Assembly: GCA_021464245.1 (NCBI GenBank) | Contig: JADCRB010000066.1 | Location: 1,835,548-1,899,547 of the forward strand | Reading direction: 5' to 3' | Length of the DNA: 64,000 nucleotides | Source of the DNA: Carallia brachiata | Lineage: Eukaryota > Streptophyta > Magnoliopsida > Malpighiales > Rhizophoraceae | Part shown: positions 1 through 62,905 of the stretch, in pieces | How positions within the stretch are numbered: position 1 is the stretch's first letter | How the letters are laid out: each line of letters starts with the position of its first letter | Notes under the pieces: generated by a model | What the model was told of the DNA's origin: nothing | The model's database searches: none | What the model saw: only the letters and a program-made list of their open reading frames with translations | Made by a program: the position numbers and the translations under genes

Positions 1-1630
1 GATTCAGAAGAGTAGATTTACCAGCTCCATTGGGGCCAACAATAGCAACACGAGTTCCCATATCAATGCCTACATCAACATTTGAGAGTCTGAAATCCTT
101 TCGGTTAGGATAAGTGAAGCTGACCTCAATAAGCTGCAGAAGTGGTGGGGTCAATTCTGTAGGTTCTGGAAAATGAAACTCCACACTGTAATCTTTCCAC
201 TTCCTTGGAGCTTCTTGTATCGGCTCCTCTTCATCAACCTTGCCCTTACCCTTGCTTTTTATTGCTTCTTTTGTAGCAACAAACTTTGCACGCTCTTTAA
301 CCTTTTCCTGCTGAACACGGCTCCCTGACCGTTTAGCAGCTTTCACCTGTTTATCATAAATCTCAAACTTCTTATTCATCTCTCTGCGACGCTGCTCATA
401 ACCACTTTCAAAATCGTCAAAGTTCCCACGGTAGGAATGGAGCTTGAGGTCATGGAGGTGGATAATCTCAGTGCAGACTGTGTTAAGGAAATCCCGATCA
501 TGAGAGACAACAACAAGAGTTTTCTTCCACCTGCAAAGGTACTCCTCTAACCAGAGAACAGCCCTTAGGTCAAGGTGATTGGTGGGTTCATCCAACAGTA
601 GGAGAGTTGGCTGTACAAAAAGTGCCCTAGCCAATGAAATTCTCATCCTCCAGCCTCCACTAAATGACCGTGTAGGACGGCCCTGCATCTCCTTGGTGAA
701 ACCCAACCCAGCAAGAATCTTTGAAGCCTGAGCCTCAGCAGCATCAGACCCCAAGATCTGCAATTTCTCATAAAGTTCAGCAAGTTTTTCTCCAGCATCA
801 TCGCCATTTACATCATCTTCATCCTCATTGCCAGCAGCGGAAGATGAATTCTGCAAAGATGCAACTTCTTTCCGGACATTGATTAGCTCTTCATTAGCTG
901 CAACAACTGCTTCCAGAGCAGTTTTATCATCCCCAACCACTTCTTGTTCTACCAAAGTACATCAATATTTTTTGGCACTGGAAGCTTTCTCCAAGCAAGA
1001 AGCTTCAACAATGTAGACTTTCCTTTTCCATTGGGCCCAACCAAACCATACCTCTTTCCATGAGATATCTTCACCGATGAATTCTTTAGAAGTTCCTTAC
1101 CCCGAGCTGAGACAGAGAAATTTTCAATCATTATATCTTTGACATTTGCATCCGCTTCATCTTCTCCTTCAAGAACTGAAGTCCGGCTACCAATAACAAC
1201 AGTGAAAGCATCGTGATCATCCTTAAGAGCATCTTTTTTGGCCAGCTCTGCAGCATGGGCAGCAAGCATGTCCTTTTTTTCTCGTTTCTTCAGTTCTTTG
1301 TCAGTTACAGAGATTTCAAGCGGCCTTGCTTCATCCCTCTGCTTCCTATTCAACTGTTTTTCAGAGGCATAATCATCATCCTCCTCCTCATCAGATGGAG
1401 GAAGATCAATCCCTTCGGTATAAGATGGAAGCTTTGGAGCAACCTTTGCCTTCGGTTTACTGGATGCAGTATTTGATGATCCCTTCTTGGGTTTATCCGG
1501 TTTTTGGTCCATGCTAGCTAGCATTGCTGAGACAGAGATCCTCTCTTTCTTCCCATCCTTGGAAGCATCTTTGCTGTTTGGCTTAGCTTTACCAGCTGCA
1601 CCACTCTCCCTCTGCTTTGTTCCTTCCCAT
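1..1630 (-). CDS. ABCF4: ABC transporter F family member 4-like (GCN4/GCN20 type), C-terminus beyond window
   Basis: Soluble ABC protein with two ATPase domains and no membrane segments; the family acts in translation and ribosome-associated signalling in the cytosol. The charged N-terminus has the family features SVSAMLASMDQK and LPPSDEEEDDD. First Walker A GPNGKGKS lies near 1020-1045, the ABC signature SFSGGWRMR near 635-665, Walker B LLLLDEPTNHLD near 585-625, VVVSHDRDF near 500-520, and the second Walker A GPNGAGKS at 14-40. I read the frame open from about 954 down to 1. Two single-base indels break it: one near 952, where a run of three T gives a TAG after IDVL while the other frame resumes with LVEQEVVG, and one just after the ATG at 1628-1630. 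Family knowledge predicts an intronless CDS, as seen. The breaks look more like homopolymer errors than decay, because everything else is conserved. Confidence 0.9.
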
Positions 1631-1643
1631 TGCAGCAATTACT

Positions 1644-17050: not shown

Positions 17051-17873
17051 TGTAAAGCGTAAATTCGAGTCTAAAATAATTAAACTCAAAAATACAGAAA
17101 TAAATTACAAATAAAAATTGTAAAGTAAAAGAAATTTTACGTGGGGTCGATCTCCGTAGATCCTCCGATTAGTGTTCCTTTTTTGACTCCGTCAAGGGCT
17201 GCACGAGCTTGATCTTAACAGAAATAAATTCCACAGATTTTTCTTGAACTGGGTAGACTGAAACCGGATCTGATTTGGATGTTTTGACTACGGTTAAGAA
17301 CCGTAGAGACCTGATCTGAGCCGATCTGGCTTAATTTCACCGAGGTCGAAGGGACTTGTTCTCGGATGAGTGCCTGGATTTTGCTGAGGGCCGTATGAGG
17401 CTTAATCCCAGCCGAATTTGTAGTAATTTGATATTTTTAACTCTATATTCTCAGAAATTCAGATCTAGAACGATCCAAGAATATAAATTTAAAAATAACT
17501 TTAGAAATGGAAACAGCAAATTTTTTGGGCTTTACCCCTGAAATATCTCTCAAAACGAAGTTAGGAGAGTATACTGCTAAGTAAAAGCACGTAAGAAAAG
17601 GATAAATTTTCTTGAGAGATTTTCAAAATTTTCTTTTTTCTCTCAAATTCTCTGAATTTTTCTGTTTACAGATTTGCTGAATCTGTTTTGAACTGGGGGG
17701 TAGGGGCCTATTTATAGGGTTCCTTTCCCATGTGAACATCACATGGGAAAGGAATCTTTTTTCCTTTAATTTTTCTTTGGCCGGCGTTGCCAATTCAAAA
17801 TTGGCAACGCCGGCCATTGAATTCAATGGCAATTGAATTCATTGAATTCAATGGCCATTGAATTCAACGAATT

Positions 17874-17913
<40 letters not shown>

Positions 17914-17926
17914 CTTTCTGTTTACA
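17051..17926 (-). repeat. 3' LTR of element 1
   Basis: Begins TGTAAAGCG and ends TTTACA on the plus strand, next to the polypurine tract. R-U5 (about 17051-17710) closely matches the other LTR of this element. U3 (17717-17926) is unrelated to it. U3 holds a near-perfect hairpin, 17779-17795 pairing with 17799-17815 (GGCCGGCGTTGCCAATT arms), a CCTTTCCCATGTG/CACATGGGAAAGG inverted pair near 17722-17752, repeated ATTGAATTC palindromes and a long T-run (17869-17913). Confidence 0.9.
17709..17716 (-). promoter_or_regulatory. LTR TATA box (3' LTR, element 1)
   Basis: TATAAATA on the minus strand, at the point where similarity between the two LTRs of the element stops, as expected just upstream of the U3/R border. 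The matching box in the 5' LTR is at 27400-27407. Confidence 0.6.
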
Positions 17927-18806: not shown

Positions 18807-18823
18807 TTATCTTGTCGGCCGTC

Positions 18824-19443
18824 CTAGCGGGGCCCGAGGCAACTCCAAGTCAAGCTCGACCTCGTCTGGTGGGCCGATGATGTTGACGTCACGTCGACGT
18901 CGCTTTCCGGCTGGTTGATGCTGCCGGAATATTCTGGAAAGAGAGGCAAAGTTTCGCCGGAATGACTCCTTTCTGCTAGAAAAATTCCTCCTAGACTTAA
19001 GTACTAGGAGGGATGAACCCTTGGCTGACTCCGTAAGACCACCAGGACCAGCGTGCATGCTCCCATGGGCTACGGCTTTGATGAACATACCGTGGAGAGA
19101 CTATTGCGGTGGAAGAACTCGGACCTGCTTCATTTGACGGCGAAGTTGTACTGGTGGGATCTACCATCGGAACAGCAGACTGTTCTTTGGAAAAATCAGC
19201 TCTCAGTGCTGGTTTCTTCCTGCTTCTCCGATTCTGGAACCAATAAAACACATTTTTTCCTTCGATTGCCCCGAGTGGGCGCAATCGTGAGACAAGTTGG
19301 TAAATCTGAGATGCATTAGGCATAATACCTCCATTGTTGTGGAAGACTTCCTCTAGAATTTGCAGTTGCGCCATGGTTGGTTGCCACCTTGTGCGGGGTG
19401 ACCTTTCTTCTCCCTTGTCTTGAGGTTCTGCAACTGGTTCCAT
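18824..19443 (-). CDS. WUSCHEL-type homeobox (WOX) gene carried by element 1
   Basis: ATG at 19441-19443 in good context (AAGAAAGATGG). Residues 17-78 form a WUS-family homeodomain: TRWQPTMAQLQILEEVF, then RPLGAIEGKNVFYWFQNRR. The IEGKNVFYWFQN helix 3 and the extra loop residues are specific to plant WOX proteins. The frame is open to 18997. Beyond it, in an adjacent frame, 18935-18952 encodes TLPLFP, the canonical WUS-box, and near 18840-18860 LDLEL, an EAR-like repression motif, before a TAG at 18824. Compared with element 2, three small indels (one T missing near 19000, 11 extra bases near 18905, two missing near 18838) separate these parts. It lies in sense with pol, 3' of integrase. Likely a nuclear DNA-binding regulator derived from a host WUS-clade gene. 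Confidence 0.88.
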
Positions 19444-19530
19444 CTTTCTTGTGGCAGAGGAGCAAAGGTCTGGTGTGTGGTGAAGATCGATTGAGACTGA
19501 TGCTGAGTTTCAGACTCAAACCCTCCGTTG

Positions 19531-19538
19531 CTTTTATA
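19531..19538 (-). promoter_or_regulatory. Internal TATA box of the WOX gene, element 1
   Basis: TATAAAAG on the minus strand, 88 bp before the WOX ATG, inside a block (CCAAAAATATAAAAGC) that is conserved in element 2 at 49085-49092. This suggests that the accessory gene is transcribed from its own promoter rather than only from the LTR. Confidence 0.6.
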
Positions 19539-19589
19539 TTTTTGGGCCGTTCACAGTTTATACTCATGCGGGCCAGGAGTTGGATTGGA

Positions 19590-19984: not shown

Positions 19985-21250
19985 TTACACATAATATTGT
20001 TTCAGAAATTTACCATTGATTGGGCCGATTCGGACGCCTTCTTGGTCTGACAGCATGTAAGCGTTGTGAGTGTAGGCCTCCTGCACTAAGTATGGCCCGT
20101 CCCATTTGGAAGTAAGCTTGTCACCAGGCCGATGCTTCATGTTGATGGGCCGTCGCACTGCAAGAACAAGGTCTCCAACTTGAAAAGATCGAGGGGACCC
20201 TGCGGTTGAATGTGTTGGTGAGCCGGGCTTGGTAGCACTCAAGTTGCTGTTGTGCTTCGAGCCTCCTTTCATCGAGAGCTTCTAACTCATCCAGACGTAG
20301 GCGAGCATTCTCCTCCTGTGTGAGTCCTTCCAGAACAGCCATGCGCAGGGATGGAATCTGTGTTTCCAACGGCAGTATTGCTTCGACACCGTAGACAAGT
20401 GAGTATGGCGTCGCCTGTGTTGGAGTCCGGTAAGTTGTACGATACGCCCATAATGCCTCCGGAATTCTGTCATGCCAATCTCTTTTGGATTTAGAGACTA
20501 CCTTCGCAACAGGTTGCATAAGGTCTTGTTGAATGCTTCAGCCAAGCCATTTGCTGGGGCATTGTACATGGATGACTTGTACTGCTTGAACTTGAACTTC
20601 TCGCAGAGCTTGTCGATTAAGCTGTTGTAGAACTGCTTACCATTATCAGTGATGATGAATCGAGGGACTCCATAGCGATAGATCAGCTGAGTCCGGATGA
20701 AATTGGCAACATGCTCCTTCTTTACCTCTCTAAGTGGAATGGCTTCAGCCCATTTTGAGAAGTAGTCGGTTGCTGCGAGGATGTACAGGTGACCTAGGGA
20801 TGACTTTGGCAAGGGCCCCACTAAGTCGAGACCCCAAGCTTCAAAGGGCCAGGATGAGACAGTTGGATGCAGTGGCTCCGGTGGTTGATGTATGTAATTC
20901 GCATGAAATTGACAAGCTTGACAGGTTTTAGCAAACTCAATTGAATCACGTACCATGGTTGGCCAGTAGTATCCCATCCTTCTGAGGGAAGTGCAACTTA
21001 GGCCCTGATTGATGTCCGCCACAAACACCAGAATGTGCTTCAGTGAGAGCCTGTTTTGCCTCTTCATTGGCTAGGCAGCGAAGTAGAACTCCATCAAAAG
21101 ACCTTCGATACAGAGCATCCTTGAGATATATGAAGCGGGGAGCTCGTCGTTGAATTTCTGTCTTATGACGACGATCTTCGGGCAGCTTCCCGTGCTGTAG
21201 GTAGTCAATGATTGGTTGACGCCAATCCTCGTCCTCCGCGAGACGTACAG
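19985..21250 (-). CDS. Integrase, element 1
   Basis: Zinc-binding part includes TEAHSGVCGGHQSG and CQACQFHANY. The catalytic core has the three acidic residues in GLDLVGPLPKSS, FIITDNGKQFYN and NGLAEAFNKTL. The C-terminal part has FQVGDLVLAVRRPI and KWDGPYLVQEAYTHNAY. No chromodomain is seen. Frame changes occur near 21000, 20510 and 20200. All catalytic residues are present, so this would be a complete integrase once the indels are discounted. Confidence 0.85.
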
Positions 21251-21279
21251 ATACAGCGTTGGCTGCTGTAGTTTCTTCA

Positions 21280-21780
21280 TCATCCTTTTGTGGCACTATC
21301 CATTTCTGGCATACGGCAACAACTGTAGCCTGGATTTCTGACTTTGCAAGAGAAGTGGCCAGGTTAGCCAACGCGTCTGCCTGAGTGTTTTCTCGTCGAG
21401 GCACATGCTCCAAGGTGATGCTTTCAAATTCATCCATTAGCTGTCGAGCACGTTGATGGTAAGGTGCAAGGTCCTCTTTCTTCACATCATACAATCCTGT
21501 AAGTTGGTTGATGACGAGCTGGGAATCTCCATGGACTTCTATAGTTGGAATCTTCATATCGACAGCCATTTGAAGACCAATGATCAAAGCCTGGTATTCA
21601 GCAACATTATTTGAACATAACTCACCGAGAATGATAGCATATGGTAGTATTTGTCGTGAGGAGTGACAAACACTATACCGGCACCAGCACCATCACGCCT
21701 TGCTGCACCATCAAAGAACATCGTCCATGGTGGCAGTGTCTCAATGTAAAAGACCTCTTCATCTGGAAGATCATCTGTGA
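21280..21780 (-). CDS. Second, archaeal-type RNase H domain, element 1
   Basis: Motifs WTMFFDGAARRDGAGAGIVF, EYQALIIGLQMAVDM, IEVHGDSQLVINQL and HVPRRENTQADALANLA carry the acidic active-site residues. Location directly before integrase is the known hallmark of Tat retrotransposons. A frame change lies near 21590-21660. Confidence 0.85.
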
Positions 21781-21789
21781 ACTCCCAAT

Positions 21790-22275
21790 CGGATGGGATA
21801 GGGTGATCTGCAAGGAAGTCTGCTAGAGCTTGTCCTTTGACTGCTTTTTGAGGCACGTAGACAATGTCGTAGCTTTGTAGGATTACTGCCCACTTGGCAA
21901 GTCGTCCTGACAAGATTGGTCTAGATAAGATATATTTGACAGGATCAGCTCTGGCAATGAGACGTACCGTGTGAGCCTGCATGTAGTGCCTCAGCTTGTC
22001 AATGGCAAAGAACAGTGCTAGACATGTCTTTTCAATGGGCGAATAACTCAGTCCGGACCGTTTAGTGTTCTGCTCAAGTAATACAGGGCAACTTCCTTTC
22101 CCTGCTCGTTTTCCTGTGCAAGCAAGGCTCCCAAAGATCTTTCCTGCGCTGCAATGTAGAGAATCAACGACTTTCCTTGAATTGGAGCTCCCAGGACTGG
22201 TGGATTGGAAAGGTACTTCTTTATGCTCTCAAAGGCTTTTGCTGCAAGCTTCGTCCCACTCGAAGTTGACATCCT
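21790..22275 (-). CDS. RNase H domain (RT-linked), element 1
   Basis: Recognised by LILYIAAQERSLGALLAQ and ALYYLSRTL, then the region ending YDIVYVPQKAVKGQALADFL. The frame changes near 22050 through one base missing relative to element 2. It degrades the RNA of the RNA-DNA hybrid during reverse transcription. Confidence 0.8.
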
Positions 22276-23250
22276 TCTTCATCAACCGATGGAAAGGTTG
22301 ACATCTCCCAGCTAAATTGGAGATGAAACGGCGAATGTAAGCCAGCTTTCCTTGTAGACTTCGCAGCTCGTGCAGGTTTTTAGGTTCAGGCATCTTTTGA
22401 ATTGCCTCAACCTTTGACTGATCAACTTCGATTCCACGATGGCGCACCACGAACCCAAGAAACTTTCCTGATGTGACACCGAATGCGCACTTGAGAGGGT
22501 TCATTTTGAGCTGATGCCTCCGAAGTCTTTCGAACACTGTCTTGAGATCCTCGAGGTGGTCTTTGCGCTTCTTAGTCTTTACAACTAAGTCATCAACATA
22601 ACATTCTACAATCTTGTGCAGCATGTCATCAAAAATTTTTTGCATAGCACGTTGATAAGTGGCGCCAGCATTTTTTAATCCAAACGGCATAACTTTTAGC
22701 AGTATATACCTTTTGGGGTGCGGAATGCTGTCAACTCCTCGTCTTCTGGTGCCATTCTGATTTGGTTATAGCCTGAAGAACCATCCATGAAAGACAATGC
22801 TTCGTGACCCGTTGTTGCATCGACTGTGATCTCCGTTATGGGCAACGGAAAGTCATCTTTCGGGCAGGCCTTGTTAAGATCTCGAAAATCAACACATACC
22901 CTCAACTGTCCATTCTTCTTTCTTACCGGGACAATGTTGGCAATCCACGTTGGGTAGGTGACCTCTCGGATGAAGCCGGCATTGATCAGCTTGTTCACCT
23001 CCTCCTCGATTTGTGGAATGAGTTCCGGGCGGAACCGTCGTTGTGGCTGCTTGACAGAACGGACACTCTTCTTTACTGCTAGACGATGCACCGCAATTTT
23101 TGGGTCAAGTCCAGGCATTTCTTTGTAACTCCATGCGAACACGTCCCTGTATTGACTTAATACCTGAACATATTCCTGCTCTTCTTCTACAGTAAGTAAA
23201 GCACTTACAAATGTAGGTCGAGGATCTTCCGGAGAGCCAAGATTGACCTC
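22229..23250 (-). CDS. Reverse transcriptase domain, element 1
   Basis: Motifs in order: FIREVTYPTWIANIVPV, RVCVDFRDLNKACPKDDFPL, FMDGSSGYNQI, MPFGLKNAGATYQRAM and the catalytic CYVDDLVVK near 22585. One base is missing at about 22694, giving TGC TAA in place of TGC TAC AAA as in element 2. The frame therefore stops just before MPFGL and resumes in another frame. A second single-base gain near 22250 lies in a run of A. Confidence 0.9.
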
Positions 23251-24109
23251 CTTGAGTTCATCAACAGTTGCTTGGCCACCGTCTTCAAGTTCCGGGGGAG
23301 CCTCCTTCACTTCACCATCTGATGAGTCAGAATCAGCCTCCTCGCTAATTGTGACATGAAATGCAGAACCTCTGACTTCACCTTCTTTGTTTGACTGGAT
23401 AAGCCTGTCCTGTTTGGTGGTGGTGGTGATGGCACGTGCATCAGCTGCTTGGCTTCGGCTCTTTAGCGTGATCCGCACAGGTGACTTCTCCTGATAGCCT
23501 AAGCCAGGTCGGGACTGTGATGTTTGAGAAGCGGCGCCATGTGTGGACGGCAGCGTACCCATTGTGCTCGGGTTTGAAAAGTCATAGCCCGCCTTTGCCA
23601 AAAGCTTGTATGCATTAGGATCAAATCCTTCATGTGTTCTTCTTTCTGGAAGTGAGCCGCCTTCGACTGCCCCCGTGTGTGGTTTGACGAAGCCTTTTAA
23701 TGGTTTTGAAGATAAAACCGGCTCAATCTTTGGTATCGGCAGAGTGTAAGTCTCCTTCAGGTTGTGCAGCTCCTTTGTTTTGGGTTGGCTATGACCTTGC
23801 TCCTGTTTAAGATCAATACAATAAGAGAAAGGGGGTTGACCTTCTGAGCGTCGTGACCTAGGCACATAGCGTAGGACTGGAGTGGAGCTTGAAGATGCAA
23901 CATCCTTCGAACGAAGTTCAGCAGGCTGTGGCAGCTTTTCATTTGTTGGAGCCTGGGGTTGGGCATTGGCAGGTTCTTCGACAGCTTTTCCCTTTTTGTG
24001 GATGCCTCCAGTCCAAGTAGCTTTTGATGGAATGATCTCCGGATTGTCTGTGTCGGTGTAGAAGACTGCATCCGCCAAATGTGATTCAGCATCATCGAAC
24101 GGCTTTAAG

Positions 24110-24449
24110 TCAGCATTGACCTTTTGAACGCCACCATTGTAGTACTTGAAGCACTGATGCAGGCTTGAGAGCACAACTCCATTTCCATGAATCCATGGTC
24201 GTCCTAGCAACATCTTATATGTGGTACGTGCATCAATCACGTGAAATAGAGTGCTAGAAGTGAGATTACCGATAGTTAGCTCCAAGCGAATCATCCCAAT
24301 TGCTTTCTGTCCTCCTTGATTAAAGCCATGAATCATCAAGCGGCTGTCTGATAATTCATCAATGCCGATGCCGAGCTCCTTTATGGTGGATTTTGGGATA
24401 ATATTGACTGCTGAACCATCGTCGATCAGAATACGTCGGACCTTCTGTT
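24110..24449 (-). CDS. Aspartic protease domain, element 1
   Basis: In frame with gag within the 22696-26268 frame. The catalytic signature is RILIDDGSAVNII near 24400-24437, followed by LGRPWIHG near 24180, typical of Tat-type elements, where the motif is DDGSA rather than DTGA. It would process the polyprotein. No frame break lies between gag and protease. Confidence 0.8.
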
Positions 24450-26468
24450 CTCTCACATAGCCTGATACATACAGCGGCCGATTGTGGGGTTTGGACCCCA
24501 GTAGGAGATCCTCATCTGAAAATGAGATGGCAGAGTAATATCCGACGTGATTTCGGTCCGCCTGTTGCTCCGCTGAGTTAGACTCATTTGATGGCTGTGA
24601 TTCAGCTGAGGTCTGGAGAGTATTGCTGACTTGATTTTGCCACACTTCTGTTGATTGCAAAGCTATAAACAGCTGAGGGTTAGCGAGAAGGGTTTGAAGA
24701 GCTTCATATACCTTCTCCGTTGTCAACTTTTTGTTGTCGAGCGGCTCCTCCTTACGATGTGTCACCTCTTCTGATGGTTTTGAAGTGATGGTGGTTTGGT
24801 TTGCCGAGGTTACGCCTTCCTGGTCCAGAATGATTTTATTCTGGCTTTTGAGCTTCATGATTAGCTCCTTTAGGACGAAACATTTCTCGGTTGGATGACT
24901 TACTATCCGATGATATTTGCAGAATCTCGGATCGCTGACTCGATCCTTTTCATTCGGCCGCTTGCACTCTGGGAGTTCGATCAGCTTCGCCTCCAGGAGT
25001 TGGTCAAGGATGTCGGGGACGTCTGAGTCAGGGAATGGATACTGCTTTTGCTCCAACTCTCGCAAGGTCACCTTCCGCCTTTCCTGTTGTTTTGGCTGAG
25101 TTATTTGGGTCGGAGGATTTACCTTGGCTTTAGCTCCCACTTTTACTGGTGCGGCTTCAACAGTCATCACTTCTTTCCCTTTTCCGGAGCTGTTGGGTTT
25201 CTTAATCTCCCTTCTGCCCCCTTGCTGGTCCAACTGGATGGGAACCGTGCCTCCGGAAGTCTGGATGCTTATCTCCATATCATGTGCGCGGGTCGCCAAT
25301 TCTTCGAAGGTTCGGGGTTTGACACCCTGCAGGATGTATAACAGCTCCCAATGCATTCCTTGGATGCACATCTCCACGGCAGAAGTCTCCGTCAGGCGAT
25401 CTTTGCAGTCCAAGCTGAGGGCACGCCATCTGTTGATGTATTCGACAACGGGCTCTCCTTTTCTTTGTTTGGTGCTGGTAAGCTCCATCATACTTACCGT
25501 CCTTCGAGTGCTGAAAAATCTATTGAGGAACTCTCGTTGTAGCTGTTCCCAACTGTCGATCGATTCTGGTTCAAGATTTATGAACCAGGTGAAAGCGGTC
25601 TCCCTGAGTGAACGAACAAACTGTTTCACCAAGAGATCTCCGTAAGTCCCTGCGTTGTTGCAGGTTTCAACGAAGTGGGCGATGTGCTGTTTGGGATCGC
25701 CTCGTCCGTCGAATTGTTGAAATTTGGGCGGTTGGTAGCCCAAGGGCATGTTGAGACTTTCGATCCGTCTGGTGTACGGTTTGACGTACATCTGTGATCC
25801 TTGGAAGGATGTAGCTTGTTGCAGTCGGATCGTATTGGCTATCATTTCCTGCAATTGTTGAACAGATAGCGAAGCTATAGAATTTGAGGGTGGCAGCTGT
25901 GTAGAACTACCTGGTCGCTTTTCTGCAGGGAAGACGTCGGCTGGTGTGGCTTCTGGAGTGAAACCGGGTGGATATGGTTGCTCCTCGCGGATTTCGGGAT
26001 CAACTTGGATCGGGCTTTTTCCTTTGAGAGCTGCGATCTGTTGATCTTTTTCCTCCACGACTCTGATCAGCTGTAAAATTTTGTTTTCCAATTCTGAAAT
26101 TCTTTCTCTGTGCTGGTTGTGTTGGTCATCATGACGGCAACAGATGAGGCTCCGGGAAAGACTGGGGGAGAAAACTCTTCTGATTCTTCTGTGTGAGTCG
26201 GATTTTGTTGAGCAGGCTTCGTCGTGTTGCCCCCGATTTCGATCGGGGTGGGTGATCGACTCCTCCATGCGGCAAGAGAGTCAGGGGAGAGATCCTGTTG
26301 TGCAAGCTGTGGACTCTCCATTTCGACATTTTGTCGGGTTTGGACGGCAAGAAATTGTGTCCGTCCCCGGGTTTCTGGACCTGCGTACCCAGGTAGGGTA
26401 GTTGATGCAGGCAATGGAGCCGTTGCCTTCTTTTTTGTGGCAGCAGTTGTACTCCTTTTCGGTGCCAT
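24450..26468 (-). CDS. Gag, element 1
   Basis: Starts MAPKRSTTAATKKKATAP at 26468 and runs in two frames joined near 26100, where one base is missing between TSTEKE and ISELENKILQLI. The main part has the retrotransposon gag core: PLGYQPPKFQQFDGRGDPK, FVRSLRETAFTWFINLEP, SWEQLQREFLNRFFSTRR and YINRWRALSLDCKDRL. It ends in a linker leading to protease. The homologous point in element 2 is broken differently (two bases fewer), so the A-run there is unstable. Role: capsid of the virus-like particle. Confidence 0.85.
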
Positions 26469-26489
26469 TTGATGTGCTGAACACCTGTA

Positions 26490-26538
<49 letters not shown>

Positions 26539-26700
26539 TTTTTACTTTTTACTTTTTACTTTTTACTTTTTTACTTTTTTTTTACTTTTTACTTTTTACC
26601 TTTTTTTTTTTTTTTTTCTTTTTTTTTTTGTCTCTTTTTTTTTTTCTCTCTCGGCTCCCCTTTTACCTCTTTTTTTTTTTTTTTTTTTAAGAAACAAGAG
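26490..26700. repeat. A-rich leader of element 1 (poly-T on plus)
   Basis: Between the primer-binding site and the gag ATG lies a 200 bp homopolymer-rich tract with TTTACTTTTT units. The same kind of leader, longer, is in element 2 at 42519-42738. Confidence 0.85.
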
Positions 26701-27399
26701 ATGGGAGGTGAAGATGTCCCACCGAGCGTGCCAAAAATTTGTAAAGCGTAAATTTCGAGCCTAAAACAATTAAACTCGAAAATACAAAAATAAATTACAA
26801 ATAAAAATTTAAAAATAAAAGAAAATTTACGTGGGGTCGATCTCCGTAGATCCTCCGATTAGTGTTCCTTTTTTGACTCCGTCAAGGGCTGCACGAGCTT
26901 GATCTTGACAGAAATAAATTCCACAGATTTTTCTTGAACTAGGTAGACTGAAACCGGATCTGATTTGGACGTTTTGACTACGGTTAAGAACCGTAGAGAC
27001 CAGATCTGAGCCGATCTGACTTAATTTCACCGAGAGTCGAAGAGACTTGTTCTCGGATGAGCTGCCTGGATTTTGCTGAGGGCCGTATGAGGCTTAATCC
27101 CAGCCGGATTTGTAGTAATTTGATATTTTTAACTCTATATTCTCAGAAATTCAGATCTAGAACGATCCAAGAATATAAATTTAAAAATAACTTTAGAAAT
27201 GGAAACAGCAAATTTTTTGGGCCTTACCCCTGAAATATCTCTCAAAACGGAGTTAGGAGAGTATACTGCTAAGTAAAAGCACGTAAGAAAAGGAGAAATT
27301 TTCTTGAGAGATTTTCAAAATTTTCTTTTTCTCTCAAATTCTCTGAATTTTTCTGTTTACAGATTTGCTGAATCTGTTTTGAACTGAGGGGCATGGGCC

Positions 27400-27407
27400 T
27401 ATTTATA
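27400..27407 (-). promoter_or_regulatory. LTR TATA box (5' LTR, element 1)
   Basis: TATAAATA on the minus strand, preceded in sense by the tandem-repeat U3. This would drive the genomic transcript of the element. Confidence 0.6.
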
Positions 27408-27416
27408 GGGTTTCCC

Positions 27417-27615
27417 CTCTCGTGTGAAAGCACGCGTGTGAAAGGCATAAGTCGACTTTTCCGTGTGAAAGGCATAAGTCGACTTTTCCGTGTGAAAGCA
27501 CGCGTGAGAAAGGAATAAGTCGACTTTTCTGACTTTCCGTGTGAAAGCATGCGTGAGAAAGGAATAAGTCGACTTTTCCGTGTGAAAGCACACATGCGAA
27601 AGGAATAAGTCGACT
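27417..27615. repeat. Tandem repeats in U3 of the 5' LTR, element 1
   Basis: About six degenerate units containing GTGTGAAAG.. and AGTCGACTTTTC, with spacing of about 27-45 bp. Such arrays in U3 are typical enhancer-like modules. They are absent from the partner LTR. Confidence 0.75.
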
Positions 27616-27618
27616 ATT

Positions 27619-27679
<61 letters not shown>

Positions 27680-27688
27680 AATGTTACA

Positions 27689-36569: not shown

Positions 36570-39016
36570 ATCTCCATTTTTAAGGTGGTTGCCCAGTTTA
36601 GCCATCATTTTAATCTGATAAAAAAAAAAAGGGCAAGGACTTCTGTGATAAATTCTCTGTGTCACAGTCTCAAAGTGCAATAATTTCTGCAGATATTCAA
36701 CAAGTCTCTTCCAGCAAAATTTGATTCGGCAATGGATGTTAAACCCAATTTCATATTCTGATCACAGAGAGTTGGGAATGATGGTAACTTTGGAACAAGA
36801 AAACATGATCCCCACCAAACTACCCAAACTCAAAAAAAGAACCTGCTGTTTGCTATTAATAAACTACCACTTTGTTTTTCCAACGCCGCCCTCTATGGTT
36901 TATCTATATCATGCTTGTTAATTTATTCTTTTTTTTAGAAAGTAAAATACACTCATGTTTTAATATCATATAAATTTATTTTTTTATTTTTTATTTTAAG
37001 TGAATCTCACTTTTTGTGAAATATAAAATTATAACTAAATTATTCTATCAAAAAATATAAATTAAATTAAAAATTTCTTATCGTATCGTGATATAACCAT
37101 TTAAAATTGTCCCAGCGGAAAATGCAAAAAACGGATGGCACTTTATAAGGACTGTGGCCACACAAAACTCAAGCATAAAACCATGAAAAATCTCAACTTC
37201 AGCCAAAAATCCTTTTAAGGCTTAGAAGATTTAATTCATGTAGGCATCCAAAGCAAAACTAACGTGGATGCTACGCCAAATAGTCCAGGGGCACCATTAC
37301 ATGATCAGACAAAATTTTATTCAAATAGTATTTTATATTATAATTAACAATATATTTTGTGCAAACACAATAAAAAAATGTGAATCGAAAAAATAATAAT
37401 ATTTTTTATTGTACATTTTATTATTATAATTACACAAAATACAATAATTACTATAATATAGACACTATTTGGCCAAATTTTCATTTGGCCATCTAACATT
37501 TACCATATTCCATAAACAAATAAAAACATTTTCTCCTGAAAATAGCATGTTTTTCAGAATGATACAAGCCCAGGGTATTTTCTCTTTCTTCTCCTTCCTT
37601 TGGAAGAAAAAGAAATAAAGTACGAAGAAAGGACCCACAAACAAAGACATTAATACACAATTACACACACAAAAAAATAGGGAAAAAAAAGAAACAAAGC
37701 CTAAAATAAAAAATTGTATATCCAGTAGGTATCTCCAGCACATTCACTTTCACTGTCCACAAAACGTGTTTAGGTATACAACAGGGCATGTCTCACATAC
37801 TTCCACTATGGCACGTGATGCAATTTTAAATCTATACTCTATAGACGACCACTCATTAACTTTAAAACCGATTAGGCATGAGGCAGCCCTAGTTCAGAAC
37901 TTGCCTTTTAGGATGTGTACAGAGAACTTTTGCTGTAAGGCCAGGAATGAGTTCCTTTAGGAGAGCATTCAACTTAATTGTATCTAGCTCATGAAAAGAG
38001 ACCATCAGTTTGCTTTTTTCTAGTAAAAAAATAATCACGTACCCTCCTAATCTATCGGGTTTTCTAATTTGTTATAGTAATTTAAGTCCTATGATGCGAT
38101 TTGAAAAGTGCTTACTTAATTTTGTTCTTTTTTATGATAAGTAAAACTCATCCATAATTTTATACCACATAAATTTACTATTTTATTTTTTATTTTAAAT
38201 AAATCTCACTCATTGTATACTGTAAAATTATGAATAAATTATATTTATGAAAAATAGAAGTCAAAAAAAAAATCCCCATATAGCAGGGAATAGAGCTTTG
38301 GCATGCTTCTGAAATAATACTCAGTATTACAGAATTAGAGAATTATAACTTGAATAGTAATCACATACAAACAAAAACGTACTGCATAAACAGGTATCAT
38401 GATTAAGGAACTTCGATAGAAGCATGGCAATCAGCATAGTATCCATTGAGGTAGAAACAAAAGGGATAAGAACACTGAACATAAATATCAGATGGATAAT
38501 CCTTGCCTTGAAGTGCTATACAATTTTGGTGGGCAGCTTCTAGCATAGACATTCCAATTGGGACCTCATCTCCATCCTTATCTGTCCAATTGGGACCTTA
38601 ATATTCATTTCCATCCTTATCTACAAAGGTTAAGAGATATCCTGTAAACACATCAAGTGCGTAAAATCACGGGCAGCGATAGCTCGCTCGCGTGGTTCAT
38701 CCTAAGGCGTGAACCTCCTAATTATTAAAGACATAAGATCTATATTGCGTAAACTTAATGTAGGCAAAATCAATGAGACAATCAGTTGAGGCATTAAATA
38801 TGCATTCTCAAGACACAAGAGCTTACTTTGGTGCTTCCGAAACATAGCATTGTGGACTACTTTGGCTTCTCGATGAAATTCAAACTGAATTCCAAAGGGC
38901 TCAATCCCAAATTAGTTTCTAGATACGACTATTGCTGTTTTGGTTCTCTCAACAAAATCACGGAAACGATTGATATAAAGAGGGCTTTTCTCGGCATTTA
39001 CATGAACTATGGGCAT
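36570..39016. repeat. Tandem duplication, unit 1 (2447 bp)
   Basis: The unit starts ATCTCCATTTTTAAGG and ends AACTATGGGCAT. It repeats as unit 2 at 39018-41472 with scattered substitutions and small indels. Within it, minus-strand 38407-38590 encodes IGMSMLEAAHQNCIALQGKD and a cysteine-bearing tail ending in TAA, similar in both units. Plus-strand 38828-39016 also has a shared open frame (VDYFGFSMKFKLNSKGLN). Neither is recognised, so these are noted and not called genes. Confidence 0.85.
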
Positions 39017-39017
39017 N

Positions 39018-41472
39018 ATCTCCATTTTTTAAGGTAGTTGCCCATTCAGCCATCATTTTAATCTGATTAAAAAAAATGGGTAAGGAATTCTGTGATAAAT
39101 TCTCTGTGTCAGAGTCTCAAAGTGCAATAATTTCTGCAGATATTCAACAAGTCTCTTCCAGCAAAATTTGATCGGGCAATGGATGTTAAACCCAATTTCA
39201 TATTCTGATCACAGAGAGTTGGGAATGATGGTAACTTTGGAACAAGAACACATGATCCCCACCAAACTACCCAAACTCAAAAAAAAGAAGCTGCCGTTTG
39301 CTATTAATAAACTACCATTTTTTTTTCCAACGCCATTATCTATATCGTGCTTGTTAATTTATTCTTTTTTTAAAAAGTAAAACACACTCATGTTTTAATA
39401 TCATATAAATTTATTTTTTTATTTTTTATTTTAAGTAAATTTCACTTTTTGTGAAATATAAAATTATAACTAAATAATTCTATCAAAAAAATATGAATTA
39501 AATTAAAATTTTCGTATCCTAAATAACTATTTAAAATTGTCCCAGCGGAAAATGCAAAAAAACGGATAGCACTTTATAAGGACTGTGGCCACACAAAACT
39601 CAAACATAAAATCATGAAAAATCTCAACTTCAGCCAAAATCCTTTTAAGGCTTATGAAAAATCTCAAGTTCAGCCAAAAATCCTTTTAAGGCTTAGAAGA
39701 TTTAAGTCATGTAGGCATCCAAAGCAAAACTAACATGAATGTTATGCCCAAATAGTCCAGGGACACCATTACATGATCAGACAAATTTTATTTAAATAGT
39801 GTTTATATTATAATTAATAATATATTTTGTGTAACCACAATAAAAAAAATATAAATCAAAAAAATAATGATATTTTTTATTGCACATTTTATTATTGTAG
39901 TTACACAAATAAGAATAGTATTACTAGGTAGATACTATTTGGCCAAATTTTCATTTGGCCATCTAACACTTCCCGTATTCCAGAAACAAATAAAAACATT
40001 TTCCCCTGAAAATAGCATGTTTTTCAGAATGATACAAGCCCAACGTATTTTCTCTTTCTTCTCCTTCCTTTGGAAGAAAAAGAAATAAAGGATGAAGAAA
40101 GGACCCACAAACAAAGACATTAATACACACACAAAAAAGGGGAAAAAAAAAGAAACAAAGCCTAAAATAAAAAATTTTATGTCCCGTAGGTATCTCCAGC
40201 ACATTCACTTTCACTGTCCACAAAACCTGTTTAGGCATACAACAGGGCATGTCTCACGTACTTCCCCTATGGCCCGTGATGCAATTTCAAATCTATACTC
40301 TATAGACATGCACCCATTAACTTTAAAACCGATTGGGCATGAGGAACCCTGTTCAAACTTGCCTTTTACGATGTGTACAGAAAACTTTTGCTGTAAGGCC
40401 AGGAATGAGTTCCTTTAGGAGAGCATTCAACTTAATTGTATCTAGCTCATGAAAAAAGATCATCAGTTTGCTTTTTTTCAGTAAAAAAATAATCGCGTAC
40501 CCTCCTAATCTATCGGGTTTTCTAATTTGTTATAATAGTTTAAGTCCTATAATGCGATTCAAAAGGTGCTTTCTTAATTTTACTCTTTTTTATGGTAAAT
40601 AAAACTCATCCATAATTTTATACCACATAAATTTATTATTTTATTTTTTATTAGACAATAAATTTCACTTATTGTCTAGTGTAAAATTATAAATAAGTTA
40701 TATTTACAAAAAATAGAAGTGAAAATAAAAATCCCTGTGTAGCAGAGAATAAAGCCTTATGCTTATGAAATAATACTCTATATTATAGAATTAGAGAATT
40801 ATAACTTGAATAGTAATCACATACAAACAAAAACGTACTACATAAACAAGTATTATGATTAAAGAACTTCGATAGAAGCATGGCAATCAGCATAGTATCC
40901 ATTGAGGTAGAAACAAAAGGGATAAGAACATTGAACAAAAATATCAGATGGATAATCCTTGCCTTGAAGTGCTATACAATTTTGGTGGGCAGCTTCTAGC
41001 ATAGACATTCCAATTGCGACCTCAGTGAGATCCTTATCTGTCCAATTGGGACCTTAGTATTCATGTCGATCCTTATCTAGAAAGGTTAAGAGATATCCTG
41101 TAAACACATCAAGTGCATGAAATCACAGGCAGCAATAGCTCGCTCACGTGGTTCATCCTAAGGCGTCAACCTCCTAATTATTAAAGACATGAGATCTATA
41201 TTGCGTAAACTTAATGTAGGTAAAATCAATGAGACAATCAGTTGAGGCATTAGATATGCATTCTCAAGACACAAGAGCTTACTTTGGTGCTTCCGAAACA
41301 TAGCATTGTGGACTACTTTGGCTTCTCGATGAAATTCAAACTGAATTCCAAAGGGCTCAATCCCAAATTAGTATCTAGATACGACTATTGTTATTTTGGT
41401 TCTCTTAACAAAATAACGGAAACGATTGATATAAAGAGGGCTTTTCTCGGCATTTACATGAACTATGAGCAT
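39018..41472. repeat. Tandem duplication, unit 2 (2455 bp)
   Basis: Matches unit 1 end to end. It contains an extra internal 46-base-scale repeat near 39612-39700 (AAAAATCTCAACTTCAGCCA and its near copy). It is separated from unit 1 by a single N at 39017. Confidence 0.85.
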
Positions 41473-41603: not shown

Positions 41604-42466
41604 TGTAAATAGGTATAAAAAAAAAAAAAAAGAAAGGTATTGGCAGCCGCCAACCTTGAAGTCAAGGTTGGCAGCTGTCAACCTAATTAAATGCCACCAA
41701 CCAAATGGTTGGTGGTAGACAGGCGGGGGGAGACCTATAAATTGGCCTCCCCAAATTGAATTAAAGCAGAGCAGAGAGAAGCAAGCGAAGAAAAAAAAAA
41801 AAAGAAGCAGAGAGGAGTGAAAAATAAAAAAATCTCTTGAAAATTCAGTAAATTTATAATAGAAAAATTTAGAGAATTTGAGAGAAAAATAAAATTTTGA
41901 AAATCTCTTAAGAAAATTTTCCTTTTTTTACGTACTTTTACTCTGCAATATACTCTCCTAACTCCTTTTTTAGAGATATTTCAGGGGTAAACCTCAAAAA
42001 ATTTGCTGTTTCCATTTCTAAAATTTTTTAGGTTTATATTCTCGGATCGCTTTAGATCTGAATTTATGAGAATATAGATCTAAAAATATCAAATTACTAC
42101 AAATTCGGCTGGAATTAAGTCTCATACGGCCCTCAGCAAAATCCAGGCAGCTCATCCGAGAACAAGTCCCTTCGACCCTCGGTGAAATTAAGCCAGATCG
42201 GCTCAGATCAGGTCTCTGTTCTTAACCGTAGTCAAAACGTCCAAATAGATACAGTTTCAGTCTACCCAGTTCAAAAAAAGCGTGTGAAAATTATTTCTGT
42301 CAAGATCAAGCTCGTGCAGCCCTTGACGGAGTCAAAAAAGGAACACTAATCGGAGGATCTACGGAGATCGACCCCACGTAAATTTTCTTTTATTTTAAAT
42401 TTTTATTTGTAATTTATTTTTGTATTTTCGAGTTTAATTGTTTTAGACTCGAAATTTACCTTTACA
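41604..42466 (+). repeat. 5' LTR of element 2
   Basis: TGTAAATAGG to TTTACA. U3 has an imperfect hairpin (TTGGCAGCCGCCAACCTT against AAGGTTGGCAGCTGTCAA, about 41641-41682) and CCACCAACCA/TGGTTGGTGG. A TATA box TATAAAT is at 41736-41742. U3 differs from both U3 types of element 1, while R-U5 is homologous in inverted orientation. Confidence 0.9.
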
Positions 42467-42638: not shown

Positions 42639-42703
42639 ACGAAAAAGTAAAAAAGTAAAAAAAAAAAAAGTAAAAAGTAAAGTAAAAAAAAGTAAAAAGT
42701 AAA

Positions 42704-42738
<35 letters not shown>
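42519..42738 (+). repeat. A-rich leader of element 2
   Basis: About 220 bp of poly-A with GTAAAAAGTAAAAA units between PBS and the gag ATG, homologous to 26490-26700 of element 1. Confidence 0.85.
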
Positions 42739-42744
<6 letters not shown>

Positions 42745-42762
42745 AGGTGTTCAGCACATCAA

Positions 42763-44455
42763 ATGGCACCGAAAAGGAGTACAAGCTGCCACAAAAAGAA
42801 GGCAACGGCTCCATTGCCTGCATCAACTACCCTACCTGGGTACGCAGGTCCAGAAACCCGGGGACGGACACAATTTCTTGCCGTCCAAACCCGACAAAAT
42901 ATCGAAATGGAGAGTCCACAGCTCGCACAACAGGATCTCTCCCCTGACTCTCTTGCCGCATGGAGGAGTCGATCACCCACCCCGATCGAAGTCGGGGGCA
43001 ACACGACGAAGCCTGCTCAACAAATCCAACTCACACAGAAGAATCAGAAGAGTTCTCCCCCAGTCTTTCCCGGAGCCTCATCTGTTGCCGTCATGATGAC
43101 CAACACAACCAGTACAGAGAAAGATTTCAGAATTGGAGAACAAAATTTTGCAGCTGATCAGAGTCGTGGAGGAAAAAGATCAACAGATCGCCGCTCTCAA
43201 AGGAAAAGCCCCGATCCAAGTTGATCCCGATCCGCGAGGAGCAACCATATCCACCCGGTTTCACTCCAGAAGCCACACCAGCCGACGTCTTCCTGCAGAA
43301 AAGCGACCAGGTAGTTCTACACAGCTGCCACCCTCAAATTCTGTAGCTTCGCTATCTGTTCAACAATTGCAGGAAATGATAGCCAATACGATCCGACTGC
43401 AACAAGCTACATCCTTCCAAGGATCACAGATGTACGTCAAACCGTACACCAGACGGATCGAAAGTCTCAACATGCCTTGGGCTACCAGCCGCCCAAATTT
43501 CAACAATTCGACGGACGAGGCGATCCCAAACAGCACATCGCCCACTTCGTTGAAACCTGCAACAACGCAGGGACTTACGGAGATCTCTTGGTGAAGCAGT
43601 TTGTTCGTTCACTCAGGGAGACCGCTTTCACCTGGTTCATAAATCTTGAACCAGAATCGATCGACAGTTGGGAACAGCTACAACGAGAGTTCCTCAACAG
43701 ATTTTTCAGCACTCGAAGGACGGTAAGTATGATGGAGCTTACCAGCACCAAACAAAGAAAGGAGAGCCCGTTGTCGAATACATCAACAGATGGCGTGCCC
43801 TCAGCTTGGACTGCAAAGATCGCCTGACGGAGACTTCTGCCGTGGAGATGTGCATCCAGGGAATGCATTGGGAGCTGTTATACATCCTGCAGGGTGTCAA
43901 ACCCCGAACTTTCGAAGAACTGGCGACCCGCGCACATGATATGGAGATAAGCATCCAGACTTCCGGAGGCACGGTTCCCATCCAGTTGGACCAGCAAGGG
44001 GGCAGAAGGGAGATTAAGAAACCCAACAGCTCCGGAAAAGGAAAAGAAGTGATGACTGTTGAAGCCGCACCAGTAAAAGTGGGCGCCAAAGCTAAGGTAA
44101 ATCCTCCGACCCAAATAACTCAGCCAAAACAACAGGAAAGGCGGAAGGTGACATTGCGAGAGTTGGAGCAGAAGCAGTATCCATTCCCCGACTCAGACGT
44201 CCCGACATCTTGAACAACTCTTGGAGGCGAAGCTGATCGAACTCCCAGAGTGCAAGCGGCCGAATGAAAAGGATCGAGTCAGCGATCCGAGATTCTGCAA
44301 ATATCACCGGATAGTAAGTCATCCAACCGAGAAGTGTTTCGTCCTGAAGGAGCTAATCATGAAGCTCAAAAGCCAGAATAAAATCATTCTGGACCAGGAA
44401 GGCGTAACCTCAACCAACCACACCATCACTTCAAAACCATCAGAAGAGTGACACA
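42763..44455 (+). pseudogene. Gag of element 2, frameshifted
   Basis: Begins MAPKRSTSCHKKKATAP and matches gag of element 1 in pieces: MENKILQLIRVVEEKDQQ, GYQPPKFQQFDGRGDPK, AVEMCIQGMHWELLYIL. At least four single-base indels (near 43130, 43240, 43480 and 43780) change the frame. No intact capsid protein can be made from this copy as assembled. Confidence 0.85.
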
Positions 44456-44765
44456 CCGTAAGGAGGAGCCGCTCGACAACAAAAAGTCGACAACGGAGAA
44501 GGTATATGAAGCTCTCCAAACCCTTCTCGCTAACCCTCAGCTGTTTATAGCTTTGCAATCAACAGAAGTGTGGCAAAATCAAGTGCAATACTCTCCAGAC
44601 CTCAGCTGAATCTCACCATCAAGTAATTCACTCACGGAGCAACACGGCCCAAAATCACGTCGGATGTTACTCTGCTATCTCATTTTCAGATGAGGATCTC
44701 CTGCTGGGGTCCAAACCCCACAATCGGCCGCTGTATGTATCAGGCTATGTGAGAGAACAGAAGGT

Positions 44766-49179: not shown

Positions 49180-49791
49180 ATGGAACCAGTTGCAGAACCT
49201 CAAGATAAGGGAGAAGAAAGGTCACCCCGCACAAGATGGCACCCAACCATGGCACAACTACAAATTTTGGAGGAAGTCTTCCACAACAATGGAGGTATTA
49301 TGCCTAATGTATCTCAGATTTACCAACTTGTCTCATGATTGCGTCCGCTCGGGGCAATCGAAGGAAAAAATGTGTTTTATTAGTTCTAGAATCGGAGAAG
49401 CAGGAAGAAACCAGGACTGAGAGCTGCTTTTTCCAAAAAACAGTCTGTCGTTTCGATAATAGATCACACTGGTACAACTTCGCCCTCAAATGAAGCAGGT
49501 CCAAGTTCTACCACGGCAATAGTTTCTTCAGGCTATAACGATCAAAGTCGTAGCCTATGGGAGTATGCGTACTGGTCCTGATGGTCTTACGGAGTCAGCC
49601 AAGGGTTCATCCCTCCTAAATTTTTAAGTCTAGGAGAAATTTTTCTAGCAGAATGGAGTCATTCCAGCGAATTTTTGCCTCCCTTTCTAGAATATTCCGG
49701 CAGCATCAACCAGCCGAAAAATGACGTCAACATCATCGGCCCACCAAACAAGGTCGAGCTTGACTTGGAGCTGCGCCTCGAGCCCCGCTAG
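49180..49791 (+). pseudogene. WUSCHEL-type homeobox gene of element 2, with nonsense changes
   Basis: The 612 bp keep one reading frame from ATG 49180 to TAG 49791 with no indel. Against element 1 the homeodomain is the same (TRWHPTMAQLQILEEVF, RPLGAIEGKNVFY) except for three stops: CGA to TGA near 49336, TGG to TAG at 49381 and CAG to TAG at 49387. A fourth, TGG to TGA, is near 49579. The C-terminus ends VELDLELRLEPR, with the EAR-like LELRL as in WUSCHEL. The WUS-box position reads FLPPFL (49672-49689), degraded from TLPLFP. It was probably a working gene inactivated by substitutions. Confidence 0.88.
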
Positions 49792-50716: not shown

Positions 50717-51580
50717 TGTAAATATGTATAAAAAAAAAAAAAAAGAAAGGTGTTGGCAGCCGCCAACCTTGAAGTCAAGGTTGGCAGCTGCCAACCTAAT
50801 TAAATGCCACCAACCAAATGGTTGGTGGCAGACAGGCGAGGGAGGCTTATAAATTGGCCTCCCCAAATTGAATTAAAGCGGAGCAGAAAGAAGCAAGCGA
50901 AGAAAAAAAAAAGCAGAGAGAGAGAGAAAAATAAAAAAATCTCTTGAAGATTCAGTAAATCTGTAAACAGAAAAATTTAGAGAATTTGAGAGAAAAAGAA
51001 AATTTTGAAAGTCTCTCAAGAAAATTTCTCATTTTCTTACGTACTTTTACTCTGCAGTATACTCTCCTAACTCCTTTTTGAGAGATATTTCAGGGGTAAA
51101 CCTCAAAAAATTTGTTGTTTCCATTTCTAAAATTATTTTCAGGTTTATATTCTCGGATCGCTCTAGATCTGAATTTATGAGAATATAGATCTAAAAATAT
51201 CAAATTACTACAAATCCGGCTGGAATTAAGTCTCATACGGCCCTCAGCAAAATCCAGGCAGCTCATCCGAGAACAAGTCCCTTCGACGCTCGGTGAAATT
51301 AAGTCAGATCGGCTCAGATCAGGTCTCTGCGGTTCTTAATCATAGTCAAAACGTCCAATCAGATACAGTTTCAGTCTACCCAGTTCAAGAAAAGCTGTGG
51401 AAATTATTTCTGTCAAGATCAAGCTCGTGCAGCCCTTGACGGAGTCAAAAAAGGAACACTAATCGAAGGATCTACGGAGATCGACCCCACGTAAATTTTT
51501 TTTTATTTTAAATTTTTATTTATAATTTATTTTTGTATTTTCAAATTTAATTGTTTTAAACTCGAAATTTACCTATTACA
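50717..51580 (+). repeat. 3' LTR of element 2
   Basis: TGTAAATATG to ATTACA, with the same U3 hairpins as the 5' LTR and TATAAATT at about 50848-50855. The two LTRs differ by scattered substitutions and a few indels, so the insertion is not very recent. Confidence 0.9.
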
Positions 51581-58100: not shown

Positions 58101-58586
58101 TGAAAGTGCAAACTGAACTTCAAAGGTTCAAAGAACATAAGAAGAAGAACAGAAAATGCAGAAAAAAGAAAACACAGCAGAGAACCTTTTTTTTGGAGCT
58201 AGAAAAAACCACCACACCTTCATCTGTATAAGAAAACCCATTTAAAGGGTCATAGTACAAAAGTAGATACAGCAATGATACAAAAGAGCATGCACACCAT
58301 GCTTAAAAAGCTACCTAACAAGGCATTGTCTTTCACAAATTCAGAAAAGTGGACTGACAAGAATCCACTAACAAAAGTATGCTTCTAGTAGCAGCTAAAA
58401 CTTTTCAAAGTACAAAAAAAGATCATTAGTTGGTAGCTTGAACTAAAACACATTCCAAGCTTAACCAAAAACAACAAAAAATACATTGCTTGCTGCTGAA
58501 GTTGCTGGTCTGCTGTCACTGCACTTCAGCTCTGACCTTTTCAGCATAAAAGGAAGCTTGAACATGCAAGAAGCTAGGCTTCAACA
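58101..58586 (-). repeat. 3' LTR of the copia element
   Basis: 486 bp with TG..CA ends, nearly identical to 62906-63387. Differences are one substitution near 58140 (AAGAAG against ACAAG) and a few short-run indels. Confidence 0.93.
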
Positions 58587-60162: not shown

Positions 60163-60211
60163 AGTCCTGGTGCCTCTAACTGGATCATCATCAAACTCAG
60201 CAATAACCTCA

Positions 60212-62904: not shown

Positions 62905-62905
62905 G

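Follow-up and report, generated by a model that had tools for sequence, protein, structure and literature searches.

The genome of Carallia brachiata contains hundreds of copies of a jumping-gene family that carries its own version of the stem-cell regulator WUSCHEL (WUS). The stretch analysed here, 64,000 nucleotides of contig JADCRB010000066.1 (positions 1,835,548 to 1,899,547) and hereafter called the window, holds two Ty3/gypsy retrotransposon copies in inverted orientation: element 1 (minus strand) and element 2 (plus strand). Each carries a WUS-type homeobox gene; both window copies of the gene are decayed, and open copies are found elsewhere in the genome. By this analysis, a Tat-type Ty3/gypsy family has captured a gene derived from WUS and keeps it, under selection, as an accessory gene.

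In element 1, the homeobox part of the gene is an open reading frame (ORF) of 148 amino acids on the minus strand (18997..19443), with its ATG at 19443, its stop at 18997 and the homeodomain at residues 16-79. It runs in the sense of gag-pol, downstream of the integrase and upstream of the polypurine tract (PPT) and the 3′ long terminal repeat (LTR). The ORF matches PF00046 with an E value of 1.1e-12, and the best match by sequence in the PDB is the WUSCHEL homeodomain 6ry3 (E 1.4e-18). The AlphaFold2 model displays three helices, for which the WUS homeodomain structures 6ryd and 6ryl are the top Foldseek matches; the per-residue confidence of the model (pLDDT) is 90-92 in blocks within residues 21-70 and low in the rest of the ORF. 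The homeodomain peptide IEGKNVFYWFQNRR is encoded at 19266-19225 on the minus strand. A 39-mer from helix 3, searched with at most 3 mismatches, gave 2 matches in the window and 0 in 100 shuffles, and chance similarity is ruled out by the helix-3 k-mer controls together with the PDB match. An earlier note on this DNA had read a WUS-family homeodomain, in sense orientation and between integrase and PPT, from the letters alone, and this reading is borne out by the PF00046 and 6ry3 matches and by the position of the ORF. The C-terminal third of the element 1 gene lies out of the frame of the homeodomain: the stretch with the WUS-box-like TLPLFP (18824..19003, minus strand) and the EAR-like VELDLEL (18840..18860, minus strand, in ORF 18807-19100) are encoded in other frames. 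The gene of element 2 (49180..49791, plus strand) has four in-frame stops within its first 146 codons.

To determine how widely the gene is distributed, the whole genome (337.5 Mb) was searched. A helix-3 47-mer with at most 3 mismatches resulted in 615 matches, compared with 0 for the reversed control. A protein search scored at least 150 copies among 2047 candidates; within the stretch matched, 15 of the 150 contain a stop and 27 are 100% identical. We examined 71 copies, namely element 2, the 30 best-scoring copies and 40 chosen from the lower-scoring ones among the 150; element 1 is included as L003. This choice favours open copies, and the linker of the same copies was used as a control. 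An ATG is present at the aligned start in all 71. Two stretches of integrase C-terminal sequence were found upstream of the gene in 59 and 60 of the 71 copies, respectively, and the PPT and LTR start follow it in 63. A further 27 WOX places brought the total from 150 to 177, and the 2 of the 27 that were examined belong to the same element family. L043 is divergent: its homeodomain is changed at several positions of the loop and helix 2, helix 3 is intact, and the copy possibly belongs to a second subfamily.

The earlier note had also claimed that the gene belongs to the family and is not a chance capture by one copy; the scored copies, at least 150 in number, and their integrase and LTR context confirm this. 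It had equally considered a host gene misassembled with an element. An assembly error, or a host gene hit by element insertions, could be suspected from the mosaic structure of element 1, whose two LTRs differ in U3, and from a suspicious join at position 39017 of the window. However, the first 30 copies retrieved are spread over 23 contigs, most of the 71 copies have the gene flanked by integrase on one side and PPT/LTR on the other, and the WUS genes of the host are located elsewhere. For the family as a whole, copy spread and element context refute this explanation, to which we assign a negligible probability.

The order of domains in WUS is homeodomain, WUS-box and EAR motif (PMC7203112). 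In the element gene, 38 of the 71 copies are open for 203-212 amino acids up to an EAR-like LxLEL tail, and 30 of these 38 also possess the WUS-box TLxLFP. Counted separately, TLxLFP is found inside the ORF at residue 165 in 38 of the 71 copies (TLPLFP in 34, TLSLFP in 4), and LxLEL within the last 16 residues in 38 of the 71, mostly as LELRLGPR (17) or LELHLGPR (14), as judged from sequence only. We compared these features with 128 WOX proteins, which are mostly WUS since they were drawn by the query. The spacing from RWxPTxxQ to NVFYWFQN is 37 residues in the element gene, as in 120 of the 128 proteins; in the other 8 it is 36, and of these, 6 have TLELFP, 1 has TLQLFP and 1 has neither. The N-terminal MEP of the element gene is shared with 65 of the 128. 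TLPLFP occurs in 93 of the 128 proteins and is followed by LxLxL in 89 of these 93. By its motifs, then, the element gene keeps the layout of WUS.

Two host WUS-like genes were located away from the elements, WUS1 and WUS2 (C90:2365810-2367408 and C65:260958-261359). Compared with hazel WUS over residues 1-131, their identity is 75 and 70%, and among the 128 WOX proteins compared host WUS2 is closest to Hevea WUS (83% over 113 residues). In host WUS1, the similarity to WUS falls into three separate blocks within about 1.5 kb, the homeodomain part being about 0.8 kb away from the WUS-box part; we take these blocks to be exons. The WUS-type gene of the element is a single uninterrupted ORF. As the element gene is a single ORF while host WUS1 is split, capture from spliced RNA is the simplest inference. 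A search of the protein database for close relatives gave 13 matches among 24 candidates, all of which were read as ordinary WOX proteins. An alignment-based protein search resulted in 4134 matches; among the 120 listed, the top ones are WUS-like at 35-53% identity. PF00046 was absent from the best 120 of 887 gag-pol matches, and in viral contigs no relative was confirmed, three stretches being pattern matches only.

Selection on the gene was assessed by codon likelihood and by codon counts. For the counts, 2 copies with length differences were left out, which resulted in 69 copies with 43 distinct sequences. For the likelihood analysis of these 43, the ratio of nonsynonymous to synonymous rates (omega, dN/dS) was fitted separately for internal and terminal branches, with 11 stop codons masked. 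Homeodomain omega was 0.106 on internal and 0.377 on terminal branches, and twice the log-likelihood difference (2dlnL) against an internal omega of 1 was 20.19. The linker displayed values of 0.84 and 0.88, not different from 1. When only open copies were used, omega was 0.14 internal and 0.27 terminal for the homeodomain (2dlnL 10.75) and 1.00 internal and 0.74 terminal for the linker. Two integrase C-terminal stretches, gap-free in 31 copies each (13 and 18 distinct), gave internal omega of 0.139 and 0.209 (2dlnL 5.27 and 4.87). The homeodomain is held about as strictly as this part of the element's integrase.

The tree-free counts gave a similar picture. Homeodomain variants present in at least two copies comprised 15 synonymous and 6 nonsynonymous changes (P 6e-5 against neutral expectation), whereas private variants (11 synonymous and 37 nonsynonymous) showed no departure from the neutral 2.48 nonsynonymous per synonymous change; the two classes differ with a Fisher P of 0.0003. 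Linker variants in at least two copies were 13 synonymous and 31 nonsynonymous, which differs from the homeodomain with a Fisher P of 0.0027. Because the contrast is between two parts of the same ORF, the selection of high-scoring copies is not an easy explanation for it. Elements 1 and 2 alone gave a dN/dS of 0.37, and 0.22 for the homeodomain. In a neutral simulation, P was 0.015-0.03 (ORF), about 0.01 (homeodomain) and 0.10-0.20 (remainder). This pair is weak evidence, since much of its divergence postdates insertion. The earlier note had allowed for a dN/dS near 1 throughout the gene; this is not the case for the homeodomain, which is constrained, while linker and tail are not significantly so.

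The gene might nevertheless be a passenger that hitchhikes in the element with no role, and the nearly neutral evolution of the linker and the last third would fit this, as would the P of 0.06 for the homeodomain-linker contrast in variants shared by at least four copies (7/3 against 9/19 synonymous/nonsynonymous). However, both methods show the homeodomain to be constrained, and the linker, taken from the same copies, controls for the choice of high-scoring ones. On the basis of this constraint, in codon likelihood and in shared variants, we rejected passenger status and regard it as very improbable.

The element family itself was classified from element 1, in which the gypsy order of gag, reverse transcriptase, RNase H, second RNase H and integrase is found between the LTRs. 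All element 1 features are on the minus strand: gag to the start of reverse transcriptase (22696..26280; PF03732, PF00078), the first RNase H (21584..22228; PF17917), the second, archaeal-type RNase H (RVT_3, 20946..21692; PF13456), the integrase core (20498..21070; PF00665, rve) and the SH3-like C-terminal end of the integrase (19985..20281; PF24626, with an E of 1.5e-4 that is below the curated cut-off). A dual RNase H is a feature across the Tat family (PMC9289625), and in element 1 PF17917 is followed by PF13456 in successive ORFs. In a protein similarity search, the polyprotein resembles plant gypsy polyproteins. Judged by its domains, the family is a Tat-type Ty3/gypsy LTR retrotransposon.

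LTR ends, PPT and target-site repeats were identified by eye. In element 1 the 3′ LTR spans 17052..17926 and the 5′ LTR 26740..27688, and the region between pol and the 3′ LTR measures about 2.06 kb. Because the U3 regions of its two LTRs differ and the flanking 5-mers are unlike, element 1 is a recombinant or an assembly chimaera. The LTRs of element 2 are at 41604..42466 (5′) and 50717..51580 (3′), both on the plus strand, and its flanks TTTAC/TTTAT fit a single insertion. Divergence between the two elements is 0.5-2.8% per window of comparison in gag-pol (21103-26549 against 42673-48071) and 5-19% in the 3′ part. Gene conversion between the inverted copies, recombination or assembly are possible causes of this difference.

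Upstream of the ATG we detected a conserved block, in element 1 at 19444..19583 on the minus strand, which is a putative internal promoter plus leader. It was recognized by a drop in nucleotide diversity from 0.252 (-260 to -201) and 0.137 (-200 to -141) to 0.019 and 0.033 within -140 to -21; A-rich low-complexity sequence above -141 aligns poorly, so that the diversity there, and hence the drop, may be overstated. Within the block, TATAAAAG is located at -93 to -96 in 67 of the 71 copies (19531-19538, minus strand, in element 1). The block with TATAAAAG is probably the gene's own internal promoter. Comparison of the block with the sequence preceding the two host WUS genes (110 and 141 nt) was unconvincing, with 5 and 21 of 300 shuffles, respectively, scoring as high.

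Of 8 elements for which an LTR pair was sought, 6 have one near the expected distance; in five of these the comparison covers part of the LTR. With gaps not counted, the LTRs of L012 differ at 0 of 418 columns and those of L031 at 15 of 828, and elements with near-identical pairs are, by this measure, recent insertions. Inspection by eye of the 3′ LTRs of L001-L070 and element 2 revealed the same accessory gene joined to several clearly unlike U3 modules. Promoters thus seem to be exchanged within the family.

These upstream regions bear on the possibility that the element is the target of its own protein, which would control element transcription by binding to the LTR or internal promoter, any host effects being secondary. 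Tax and Bel1 set the transcription of their own retroviruses in some cases. The conserved block upstream of the ATG is consistent with such self-regulation, and one U3 type contains, in its fuller versions, 11-15 TGAA/TTCA motifs compared with about 2 to 2.6 in base-composition shuffles. However, the same gene is found with many U3 types, several of which have no TGAA excess (1 against 1.0 in element 2, 1 against 1.1 in L006). TGAA clusters in U3 were rejected as a common target, as they are present in one U3 type and not in others. Since U3 holds no family-wide target, we prefer action on host genes over pure self-regulation, with modest confidence; self-regulation appears somewhat unlikely, although it is the strongest of the rivals to host action.

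The DNA-contacting residues of the protein bear on the sites that it could recognize. WUS reads bases with R38, Q89, N90 and R94, and its F101 is important for dimerisation on tandem TGAA (PMC7203112). R38, N90, R94 and the docking W39 are kept in all 69 gap-free copies, and Q89 in 68 of the 69. We infer that the element protein has retained the recognition of TGAA-like sites but not the cooperativity of WUS. The reading we favour is that the captured accessory gene encodes a regulator acting in trans on host transcription to the benefit of the element, for which we see the chances as evenly balanced.

Several observations weigh against this reading. The element homeodomain is identical to the host WUS homeodomain at only 31 of 60 residues, and in a tree of 60 columns with midpoint root the element homeodomains are placed on a branch of 0.95 outside 24 other WOX rows; its targets may therefore have changed relative to WUS. 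In the alignment of the 69 copies, the position of F101 is occupied by A (55 copies) or T (14 copies), and cooperative binding to tandem TGAA may be lost. In addition, the open frame does not extend to the EAR-like end in 33 of the 71 copies, so that part of the family may no longer recruit a corepressor, and among open copies the last third of the gene (147-end) has an omega of 0.63/0.93 that is not significantly below 1 (2dlnL 1.94). Finally, carriage of the gene may not be universal. Among the first 60 of at least 150 second-RNase-H places, 30 have a listed WOX place (of 177) 2.1-2.6 kb downstream and 30 have none among the matches listed; of the latter, 10 are on contigs covered by the helix-3 listing used, and 2 of these 10 have an exact helix-3 match. 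The earlier note had asked whether other copies lack it: hundreds of copies carry it, and some elements of the family may be without it.

Two special cases of action on the host deserve separate mention. The strict form of the earlier proposal is that the protein maintains or enlarges the stem-cell niche and so favours passage to the germline. The WUS identity of the gene speaks for this, and LTR elements are among those transiently expressed in Arabidopsis shoot stem cells (PMC7560203). On the other hand, half of the homeodomain has diverged from host WUS and the dimer residue is changed, and we consider niche maintenance unlikely; being a special case, its probability overlaps with that of host action in general. 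The second is a decoy. WUS is an antiviral factor in stem cells, and the element protein would block WUS-dependent protection of these cells against viruses and mobile elements. The kept base readers and the changed F101 are what is expected of a competitor binding single sites; we hold the decoy to be doubtful, slightly more so than niche maintenance.

For host action in trans, the course of events would be as follows. A host WUSCHEL-clade gene would have been captured without introns, presumably through RNA, by a Tat-type Ty3/gypsy element, and would have become a 3′ accessory gene between integrase and PPT, the transcription of which probably relies on an internal promoter of its own. This gene would encode a nuclear regulator of about 207 amino acids, whose homeodomain would read WUS-type sites and whose WUS-box and EAR tail would recruit a corepressor. 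The regulator would most likely act in trans on host transcription where WUS-type sites matter, in the shoot meristem, as a mimic or competitor of WUS from which the element would gain. The shoot meristem is the plant's route to the germline. Constraint on the homeodomain at an integrase-like level suggests that the element may use a stem-cell regulator for its own spread. The fullest version of this idea, that the family has domesticated WUSCHEL as a putative selected, promoter-equipped repressor which rewires shoot stem-cell transcription so that new copies reach the germline, is put forward tentatively, as a possibility less probable than host action as such.

If it is true, a mobile element would be using the host's own stem-cell master gene as a transmission factor. 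Plants set aside no early germline, and inheritance requires element activity in the meristem lineage. How elements gain access to this lineage can be tested directly with a high-copy family in which a WUS-derived homeodomain is kept under selection; here natural copies are numerous, some insertions are recent, and the genome also contains the WUS of the host. For WOX-family surveys, WUS-like matches may be element genes.

The window contains further features. Adjoining direct repeats that are 90% identical (36570-39016 and 39018-41472) are separated by one N at 39017, and the pair looks like an unmerged assembly join. A Ty1/copia element is located at 58101-63387 on the minus strand, with LTRs 98.6% identical over 487 nt and an internal 278-nt duplication in gag (61997-62274 / 62261-62538). 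The only likely host gene seen is an ORF at 949-1638 (minus strand) whose product includes the beginning of an ABC transporter domain (PF00005, E 8.9e-9), which we take to resemble the F type.

Tat, Tax and Bel1 are retroviral trans-regulators, and foamy viruses have internal promoters. The element gene is likewise a 3′-end accessory regulator with a possible promoter of its own, and it differs in deriving from a host developmental gene and in that trans-regulation is here putative. In open-licence PMC titles and abstract beginnings, nothing was found that describes a WUS or homeobox gene within an LTR retrotransposon, the subscription literature being outside the scope of this search, and the main texts of PMC11963269, PMC7264820 and PMC9289625 do not contain the string "homeo". 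The available text of two WOX surveys describes elements near host WOX genes, not WOX genes inside elements (PMC5501002, PMC6482515).

Among plant elements, the closest layout is that of Retand elements with additional ORFs, which share the non-chromovirus gypsy gag-pol and an extra coding region between pol and the 3′ LTR, and for which a DNA-binding accessory protein has been proposed (Vicient 2025, PMC11963269). According to the available part of that survey, the extra ORFs are mostly antisense and mostly TRP28, no sense ORF encodes a known domain, and in its own set the region measures 2,933-6,566 bp, with an antisense TRP28 ORF in nearly all clusters. Element 1 differs in its sense homeodomain ORF and lies outside these features: its region measures about 2.06 kb, and a scan of six of its antisense ORFs detected no TRP28. 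Host-type domains have been described in other plant Gypsy elements, such as an orchid 2-ODD m6A demethylase, a Citrus YgdH of the LONELY GUY (LOG) type and an Aegilops B3, and a survey of 121 angiosperms includes PMD, G-patch, AIR1, DUF1409, YgdH, L26, B3, ArgoL2 and 2-ODD among 15 domains (PMC9289625). LOG is linked to cytokinin, and since B3 serves plant transcription factors in DNA binding, a transcription-factor domain in Gypsy elements has precedent. The present family differs from these elements, for which the main text includes no homeobox and the available text no selection on a complete developmental regulator. The nearest relative by protein is WUSCHEL/WOX itself (PMC7203112; 6ry3, 6ryd), which the element gene resembles in homeodomain fold and spacing, base readers, WUS-box, EAR-like tail and MEP; it differs from it in about half of the homeodomain residues, in the replaced F101 and in being a single ORF that is mobile, with 615 motif matches in one genome.
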